Source of the DNA: a virus
Virus record (IMG/VR): IMGVR_UViG_3300031963_000589
Span: 1 to 32,338 of that record
DNA: 32,338 nt
Direction: 5' to 3' (one strand)
Position 1 is the stretch's first letter, and every line of letters begins with the position of its first letter. Below, in pieces: positions 2,778 through 5,627 of the stretch. The notes beneath the pieces were generated by a model. The model saw only the letters and a list, made by a program, of their open reading frames with translations, did no database searches and was not told the origin of the DNA. The position numbers and the translations under genes were made by a program.

Positions 2778-2873
2778 ATGGATAAAACTGAACTAAAACT
2801 TAGACAAATGTATCTTGATACAGCGAAAAAGATTGTTGCTTTTAATAGAGCAAGACATTTCGGACATTGTTAA
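2778..2873 (+). CDS. Possible 31-residue small protein
   Basis: A short frame (MDKTELKLRQMY... to ...RHFGHC) starts 2 bases after the ahpD stop and ends just before the tmRNA acceptor half. It is basic and helical in character, and no family is recognised. The tight spacing is like its upstream neighbours, but there is no clear ribosome binding site. The stretch could instead be leader sequence of the tmRNA precursor. Confidence 0.35.
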   Translation: MDKTELKLRQMYLDTAKKIVAFNRARHFGHC

Positions 2874-2877
2874 GAAT

Positions 2878-2940
2878 TGTTGTAATCCCTTCAAAGCGAA
2901 GGAGTTCTGGACGGGAGTTCGATTCTCCCCACCTCCACCA
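2878..2940 (+). other. tmRNA acceptor piece (3' half of the tRNA-like domain)
   Basis: This piece carries TGTTGT (2878-2883), which can pair with GCAACA (3041-3046) in the coding piece as a candidate P2 helix. It also has a 5-bp CCTTC/GAAGG hairpin (2888-2902), the T-arm, the 3' acceptor strand, discriminator A2937 and an encoded CCA. There is no D-arm or anticodon arm, so it is not an independent tRNA. The 5' end of the piece is uncertain. Confidence 0.85.
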
Positions 2941-3000
2941 AAAGTATTATCGTCCCACACCAGACAATTAAAGTCGAAATGTCGTGATAATTCTTCTGAT

Positions 3001-3190
3001 GGGGGTGACTAGGTTTCGACAGGGCTAGATAGTAGAGACGGCAACACGGGAATGTGAAACCCGCAGGATTGGGGAAACTCGGTCGAAGAAGCAAAACAAA
3101 GTAAACGCAAACGATGAAGTTTACGCATTGGCAGCTTAATTGCTGACTAGGGTTTCGATGGATGAACCTCGTAACAGAATCATCCATCAT
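3001..3190 (+). other. tmRNA coding piece (5' half, tag reading frame, 3' hairpin)
   Basis: It opens with the conserved tmRNA 5' end, including the D-loop-like GGTTTCGAC. A CGGG/CCCG helix (3047-3050 with 3060-3063) follows in the place of pseudoknot PK1. The resume codon is GCA at 3107 and the stop is TAA at 3137. A 9-bp hairpin, GATGGATGA/TCATCCATC (3157-3165 with 3180-3188), closes the piece, as expected for the 3' end of a coding RNA. The exact end lies near 3188-3196. Confidence 0.85.
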
Positions 3191-3234
3191 CTATACAGTT
3201 TTTAATTTTCGAAAGGTAGTAATTCTTAACTTAT

Positions 3235-4543: not shown

Positions 4544-5092
4544 ATGAAGTTTATAACAACTGTTTTATTAATTATCGTTGTTATTTTTGCATATTTACTC
4601 ACAAGCGCACATGGAAAAATGTTAACATCGAATATTGTTAGTGTTCCATACGAATTTTTAAACGCAAAAGAAAAAAAAGAAATTGATTGTCTTGCTGATA
4701 ACATATACTATGAAGCAGGATATGAACCAAAAGAAGGAAGAATAGCAGTTGCTGCTGTAACAATTAATCGTGTTAAGTCAAATAAATTTGACAGTACTGT
4801 TTGCGGTGTCGTTAAACAGAAAACATATGGAACATGCCAATTTTCATGGCTGTGCGATGGATCTGCAGCACGTAAACCAAATGCTAATATATACAATGAG
4901 GCGAGAGAATTAGCGCTCTATGTTTATTTCAATCATGGAGTAATTGAGGATCCTTCTAAAGGTGCTTTATATTATCACGCAGATTATGTAAACCCTCGAT
5001 GGAAACTCGATAAGACCACAATAATTGGTCGCCATATATTTTACAAACCAAAAGAGGATTACTACATTTATGCTAGACAAACTAAACATTAA
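4544..5092 (+). CDS. SleB/CwlJ-type cell wall hydrolase with N-terminal membrane anchor or signal
   Basis: A 182-residue protein. Residues 1-20 form a hydrophobic signal or signal-arrest segment ending in SAHG. Residues ~46-175 match the hydrolase_2 (SleB/CwlJ) family: CLADNIYYEAGYEPKEGRIA with the likely catalytic Glu57, then AVAAVTINRV, CQFSW and a C-terminal ALYYHADYVNPRW block. These enzymes cleave peptidoglycan glycan strands. With an export segment it could act as a lysis enzyme without a holin, or as a wall-modifying enzyme. A strong AAGGAG precedes the start. The 3' end overlaps the clpP-like gene by 23 bases. Confidence 0.87.
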   Translation: MKFITTVLLIIVVIFAYLLTSAHGKMLTSNIVSVPYEFLNAKEKKEIDCLADNIYYEAGYEPKEGRIAVAAVTINRVKSNKFDSTVCGVVKQKTYGTCQFSWLCDGSAARKPNANIYNEARELALYVYFNHGVIEDPSKGALYYHADYVNPRWKLDKTTIIGRHIFYKPKEDYYIYARQTKH

Positions 5093-5627
5093 ATTAGACA
5101 CTGGCGATTCTAAACAAAATTTTTTGTTATTTATGGAAGAAGTAACAACTTCCTCATGCAAAAATATTGTTGAGTGGATCTTTCATTGTAATTTCTCTGA
5201 AGAAAATTTTGATGTATTAAATTTAATCATATGCACTCCTGGTGGTGATTTAAATGCAGCATTTGCTGTTATTGATACAATGAAAGGCAGCCACATTCCT
5301 GTTAGAACTATTGGTCTTGGGCAGATCGCTTCGGCTGGTCTGCTCATGTTCATTGCTGGAGAAAAAGGACAGCGTGTTCTTACACCAAATACATCTATTC
5401 TTTCACATCAATATACTTGGGGAGCATTCGGTAAAGAACATGAACTGTTTGCTCAAGTAAAAGAATTCGATCTTACAACCAAAAGACTGATTACGCACTA
5501 TAAAAAGTGTACAGGATTGGAGGAAACTGTAATCAGAGATAAACTTCTACCACCACAAGATATCTGGTTATCTGCGCCAGAAGCGAAGAAGCTGGGTCTC
5601 TGCGATACAGTAAAGGATCTATACTAA
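5070..5627 (+). CDS. clpP: ClpP-like serine protease
   Basis: A 185-residue ClpP-fold protease. The visible features are TPGGDLNAAFAVIDTM (oxyanion glycine strand), the nucleophile Ser88 in GQIASAG, His113 in LSHQYTWG and Asp157 in the RD before the LSAPEAKKLGLCD end motif, which completes the triad. A start at 5070 is preferred over the upstream in-frame codon at 5025 because AGAGGA lies just before it and because its N-terminus aligns with the family start. Phage ClpP-like proteins may serve as prohead/maturation proteases or join host Clp ATPases. The phage also encodes a tmRNA whose tag ends in the ClpXP-type LAA. A link between the two is inference. Confidence 0.9.
   Translation: MLDKLNIKLDTGDSKQNFLLFMEEVTTSSCKNIVEWIFHCNFSEENFDVLNLIICTPGGDLNAAFAVIDTMKGSHIPVRTIGLGQIASAGLLMFIAGEKGQRVLTPNTSILSHQYTWGAFGKEHELFAQVKEFDLTTKRLITHYKKCTGLEETVIRDKLLPPQDIWLSAPEAKKLGLCDTVKDLY

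Follow-up and report, generated by a model that had tools for sequence, protein, structure and literature searches.

The window, by which we mean the whole 32,338-base stretch analysed here, very probably carries a functional gene for a circularly permuted tmRNA, and we put a probability of roughly 85% on the reading that it encodes a working two-piece tmRNA of a T4-like phage that rescues stalled ribosomes. The stretch is an IMG/VR record in full and is a fragment of a T4-like myovirus, with matches to a baseplate hub lysozyme, a tail tube cap and a gp32-like single-strand binding protein, further matches to a gp59-like helicase loader, a terminase and PhoH, and 12 tRNA genes. The first-pass annotation had proposed a phage-encoded two-piece tmRNA of beta type and had suggested a covariance-model search to check it. 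A permuted tmRNA (tmRNA*) is identified by ARAGORN at 2848-3230 on the plus strand, and two permuted models of Rfam match far above their gathering scores: RF01850 (beta_tmRNA) covers 2827-3189 with 136.4 bits against a gathering score of 84 (E 8.5e-42), and RF04321 (tmRNA_permuted) covers 2878-3139 with 133.2 bits against one of 47 (E 3.5e-26). The features of the gene and its surroundings are as follows.

2778-2873, plus strand: 31-aa ORF MDKTELKLRQMYLDTAKKIVAFNRARHFGHC, ending just 5' of the acceptor piece (sequence)
About 2827-3230, plus strand: complete permuted tmRNA (ARAGORN, RF01850 and RF04321)
2827-2940, plus strand: acceptor piece, its 5' limit taken from RF01850 (RF01850, RF04321 and sequence)
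2879-2883, plus strand: 5' strand of P2, in the acceptor piece, pairing with 3041-3045 (sequence)
2913-2929, plus strand: T-arm (sequence)
2930-2936, plus strand: acceptor 3' strand CACCTCC (sequence)
2937-2940, plus strand: encoded ACCA (sequence)
2941-3000, plus strand: intervening sequence (IVS) of 60 nt, without an ORF (sequence)
2942-2951 with 2986-2995, plus strand: IVS-end helix, stacked on the acceptor stem (sequence; RNAfold)
2997-3000, plus strand: conserved UGAU at the IVS end, opposite ACCA (sequence)
3001-3189, to 3230 by ARAGORN, plus strand: coding piece (sequence, ARAGORN and Rfam)
3001-3007, plus strand: acceptor 5' strand GGGGGTG (sequence)
3041-3045, plus strand: 3' strand of P2, in the coding piece (sequence)
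3107-3139, plus strand: tag frame ANDEVYALAA followed by TAA (codons 3107-3136, stop 3137-3139; ARAGORN)
3157-3165 with 3180-3188, plus strand: terminal hairpin (sequence)
5025-5627, plus strand: ClpP-family peptidase homologue, probable start ATG at 5070 (PF00574 E 3.8e-29; PDB ClpP chains, E down to 1e-16)

The acceptor half lies upstream of the coding half and the two restore a 7-bp acceptor stem, as originally described, with 2930-2936 and 3001-3007 forming 7 of 7 pairs, and the alanine identity pair G3:U70 is G3003:U2934. The tag read in the first-pass annotation is the one returned by ARAGORN, and its frame ends in a hydrophobic degron directly before the stop. The extent first assigned to the gene (2878-3190) holds broadly, with the addition of the P2 strand at 2879-2883 to the acceptor piece and of the upstream sequence to 2827 reached by the models, and the gene is complete enough to work. 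Folding of 2870-3060 with RNAfold reproduces the IVS-end helix, although with z -0.83 the stretch as a whole does not fold with unusual stability. Genes for an AhpC/TSA-like peroxiredoxin (1117-1662) and an AhpD-family alkylhydroperoxidase (2270-2776) lie shortly 5' of the tmRNA. A relative (L002) has DNA 5' of its own tmRNA that resembles the C-terminal end of the 31-aa ORF of the window.

Whether the halves diverge together had been named at the outset as a check on the two-piece reading, and they do so with compensation. Among 109 distinct phage stems, acceptor pairs 4-6 change on both sides (G-C, C-G, A-U and U-A) with pairing kept, and G3:U70 is invariant; the extraction of these stems demanded 7/7 pairing, so that the 100% pairing is partly by selection, and an ARAGORN-based extraction gave stem types identical to those of the 7/7-paired set. 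Pairing of the IVS-end helix formed no part of the selection, and across the same 109 stems its positions 2-10 pair in 87-100% of cases against shuffled means of 42-91%. The UGAU or UAAU that precedes the first acceptor G faces ACCA, with A73:U-1 paired in 95%, C75:G-3 in 85% and A76:U-4 in 97% and a near-constant mismatch of C74 and A-2; among 116 unique IVSs, 91 end in TGAT and 14 in TAAT. The helix recurs in shortened form in many cellular beta genes, and in most of those sampled that have an IVS of 24-48 nt. What is new here, as judged from these patterns of covariation, is that the ends of the phage IVS form a predicted covarying helix in which CCA is paired with UGAU.

We propose that the gene would work as follows. 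A single transcript would fold back to pair the acceptor 3' strand with its 5' partner 60 nt further on, with the IVS ends lengthening the helix. Cleavage by host RNase P before G3001 and 3' processing that releases ACCA at 2940 would then yield an acceptor piece and a coding piece, which would stay joined through the acceptor stem and P2. The molecule would be charged with alanine via G3:U70 and bound by host SmpB; a search of 41 viral records, many of which are fragments, turned up no SmpB gene, so that the window tmRNA would depend on the protein of the host. Ribosomes stalled during infection would be rescued with addition of AANDEVYALAA, and the tagged proteins would pass to ClpP-type proteolysis, perhaps by the phage's own ClpP homologue.

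This homologue is encoded 1.8 kb 3' of the tmRNA, appears on visual inspection to have the Ser, His and Asp motif residues, and is a candidate partner for the degradation of tagged proteins. Of 32 tmRNA-bearing phage records tested, 20 contain ClpP, and a search of 50,697 phage records with the ClpP of the window gave only 182 matches, of which the two best from isolates, in Phosso (56%) and BUCT-ZZ01 (51%), both come from phages with permuted tmRNAs. None of seven comparison phages, chosen by similarity of the hub or of the single-strand binding protein, has a permuted tmRNA over the cut-off, and two of these seven tmRNA-free phages have weak ClpP-like matches. An association between ClpP and tmRNA across related phages is suggestive, the comparison set being not properly matched.

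The tag had also been offered as a pointer to the host, and this use of it fails. A degenerate tag search places ANDEVYALAA in at least 46 viral contigs of up to 331 kb, all of them permuted (39 by ARAGORN and the other 7 by RF04321, 3 of these 7 loci being cut at the locus end), and in only 8 genomes among 84,980 cellular species, of which 6 are one-piece by ARAGORN and 2 are without a tmRNA call. Naming a host from the tag was rejected, as the tag is common to many phages and to unrelated one-piece cellular genes, and tag-based host inference is weak. Cellular permuted beta tmRNAs, which in one family are present in 115 of 299 genomes, carry ANDERFALAA-type tags. By motif scan the beta-type coding start is present in at least 119 viral contigs, and plasmid relatives amount to one short match, in Pandoraea. 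Some phage tmRNAs (L210, L248, L205, L192 and others) have very long tag frames, for example the 31-residue ANADTFDFSAMSFTGNTVRGAANESRFALAA. A cellular permuted tmRNA with the tag ANDDNFEVALAA was seen at two loci (L059 and L089, genomes G068 and G476) from an order of 85 genomes, the class having been searched from a Lysobacterales genome; in this gammaproteobacterial order, where permuted tmRNA is rare and was first suspected to be of prophage-borne origin, five genomes gave no one-piece gene over the cut-off.

A tree was built from the acceptor piece together with the coding piece as far as the tag. In it a single branch separates off the phage genes, that of the window among them (79 rows; UFBoot 90 / SH-aLRT 95, with the bootstrap not fully settled), and as only 151 columns were usable its inner order is uncertain. 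This careful tree omits Melnitz and S-CAM3, which have long branches, and some sequences with piece boundaries that could not be set. The phage-only group adjoins a grade of Burkholderiales-type cellular beta genes, with alpha genes apart, and the window tmRNA groups with beta rather than alpha and is nested in no sampled cellular clade. Capture from a host lineage with two-piece tmRNA, as first suggested, therefore stands in part: adjacency to the cellular beta grade makes an old beta origin of the group likely, whereas the phage-only composition of the group gives no indication of a recent capture from the present host.

Nor does the architecture seem to follow the host. Permuted tmRNAs occur in the Pseudomonas phages SM1, UF_RH6 and PaMx31 (the P. 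aeruginosa phage loci are L168 2954-3345, which is SM1, L327 and L328), the last from a record without any annotation, and we take the ssrA of P. aeruginosa, the host of SM1, to be one-piece. The host of BUCT-ZZ01 is S. elongatus, and since just one of the control genomes, presumably Caulobacter, passes the permuted cut-off, S. elongatus is probably one-piece as well. These cases suggest that phages with a two-piece tmRNA can infect hosts whose own gene has another architecture.

Three other explanations of the window gene have to be weighed. The phage tmRNA might act as a decoy or inhibitor instead of serving rescue, competing with the host tmRNA for SmpB or alanyl-tRNA synthetase, or re-tagging host proteins with a different degron. 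The 2025 tmRNA database paper cites a tag-less tmRNA of phage DS6A that inhibits the endogenous tmRNA in E. coli (PMC11915505), and the failure to find SmpB in the viral records would also fit; however, an intact tag frame is preserved without change in many phage genes that have otherwise diverged, a pure decoy would have no use for a tag, and the invariance of G3:U70 also speaks against this explanation, which we regard as improbable. A gene taken up from a host, for instance by integration at ssrA, and carried as a non-functional passenger or remnant would be in keeping with the adjacency of the phage group to cellular beta genes and with the frequent use of ssrA as a prophage integration site (PMC9004378, PMC11915505). 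Such a passenger is less probable still, as no part of the gene is missing, the group contains phage genes only and shows internal diversity with compensatory changes, and no integrase was seen in the part of the window's ORFs that was scanned. Chance resemblance, or a tRNA misread as a tmRNA, is refuted by the E values of 8.5e-42 and 3.5e-26 to curated models together with the ARAGORN call, and carries negligible weight. We retain ribosome rescue by a functional two-piece tmRNA as the preferred reading.

Two-piece tmRNAs of phages are already known, from Melnitz and from 53 of 133 unique tmRNA structures obtained from 402 phages (PMC9004378), and the 2025 tmRNA database contains 79 phage sequences (PMC11915505), so that the window gene adds a member to a known kind. 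Methylophilales phage Melnitz (MZ577097) is likewise a T4-like myovirus with a complete permuted two-piece tmRNA (RF04321 113 bits), reported to lie under a glutamine riboswitch (PMC9004378). Unlike the window gene, its ssrA sits beside alphaproteobacterial genes (in our quicker tree; PMC9004378) and has the tag ANDNYVPVDYALAA, and ClpP was not found in Melnitz. The Burkholderiales-type permuted tmRNA (RF01850) is the best-matching model and has the same part order, but its genes carry ANDERFALAA-type tags, have an IVS of 4-48 nt in our sample against 60 nt in the window, score up to 336 bits with RF01850 against 136, and stand apart from the group of phage genes. SM1 and UF_RH6 (Pseudomonas), BUCT-ZZ01 (Synechococcus) and Phosso (Sinorhizobium) also encode permuted tmRNAs, which their records do not list as features, and BUCT-ZZ01 and Phosso resemble the window in carrying ClpP homologues. 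Their tags differ from that of the window in SM1 and UF_RH6 (ANDTSFDVRLAA) and in BUCT-ZZ01 (ANDETFSMALAA); these three have long branches in the tree and Phosso lies outside it. The permuted match in Phosso (L437, 349596-350198, minus strand; RF04321 113 bits) spans 603 nt, and its IVS is therefore probably long.

The existence of protein genes nested in the IVS of relatives is well supported. An ATG near the IVS start opens a frame ending exactly at the terminal stop codon in 21 of 96 IVS clusters, where shuffling gives a mean of 1.9 (maximum 8 in 1000) and shuffling of the interior only a mean of 4.5 (maximum 10), which rules out chance for the family. The 60-nt IVS of the window has no nested ORF from near CCA to UGA, the longest being 2 codons. 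Nested genes were seen in L219, L333-L335, L342, L413-L418, L313, L258 and L004, with the stop usually the UGA of UGAU. An IVS ORF of about 54 aa seen by eye in Melnitz extends beyond the IVS and was left out of the count. ARAGORN misses the longest IVSs, and counts based on it are for this reason too low.

The nested genes encode several kinds of protein. An 84-aa thioredoxin (Pfam E 4.1e-21) lies within the IVS in L333-L335, with a copy of 82% identity in L342 and free-standing homologues of 87-89% in L336-L341. A 64-aa protein lies within the IVS of the beta-type L413-L417 and of the alpha-type L418 (RF01849 121.9 bits) and is free-standing in L419-L423; the presence of the same gene in beta- and alpha-type tmRNAs suggests that nested genes move between tmRNAs. 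A 41-aa membrane peptide, with relatives sought by a DNA pattern, lies within the IVS of several phages; in L315 and L321 its gene is placed just 5' of the tmRNA, and L319 and L320 encode it with no tmRNA call. For most pairs of nested genes pN is well under pS, as in the 41-aa family (0.11 against 0.73 and 0.25 against 0.89), and such values argue that the IVS membrane peptides are under purifying selection, weakly so for a 37-aa pair (0.27 against 0.36).

It is likely that the phage two-piece tmRNA genes are composite genes, the precursor's IVS serving also as a small mRNA, with the window as the empty form. On this reading, the ribosome-binding site of a nested gene follows CCA immediately, within the IVS helix, and the gene stops at the UGA of UGAU beside the RNase P site. 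With start and stop so placed, translation and tmRNA maturation could be mutually coupled, which is speculation on our part. Where the accessible part of the 2025 tmRNA database paper describes one tRNA inside an IVS, called unique, that part does not mention protein genes there (PMC11915505), our coverage being of the open-licence literature.

The gene of the window is a well-supported addition to the ribosome-rescue RNAs borne by phages, and with a ClpP homologue recurring in phages a phage-run pathway of tagging and destruction becomes directly testable. As the two-piece tmRNAs of beta type make up a large phage-only group, neither tag nor architecture alone names a host. The more surprising result concerns the relatives rather than the window gene itself, in that the survey of the family reveals protein genes nested within an RNA gene.
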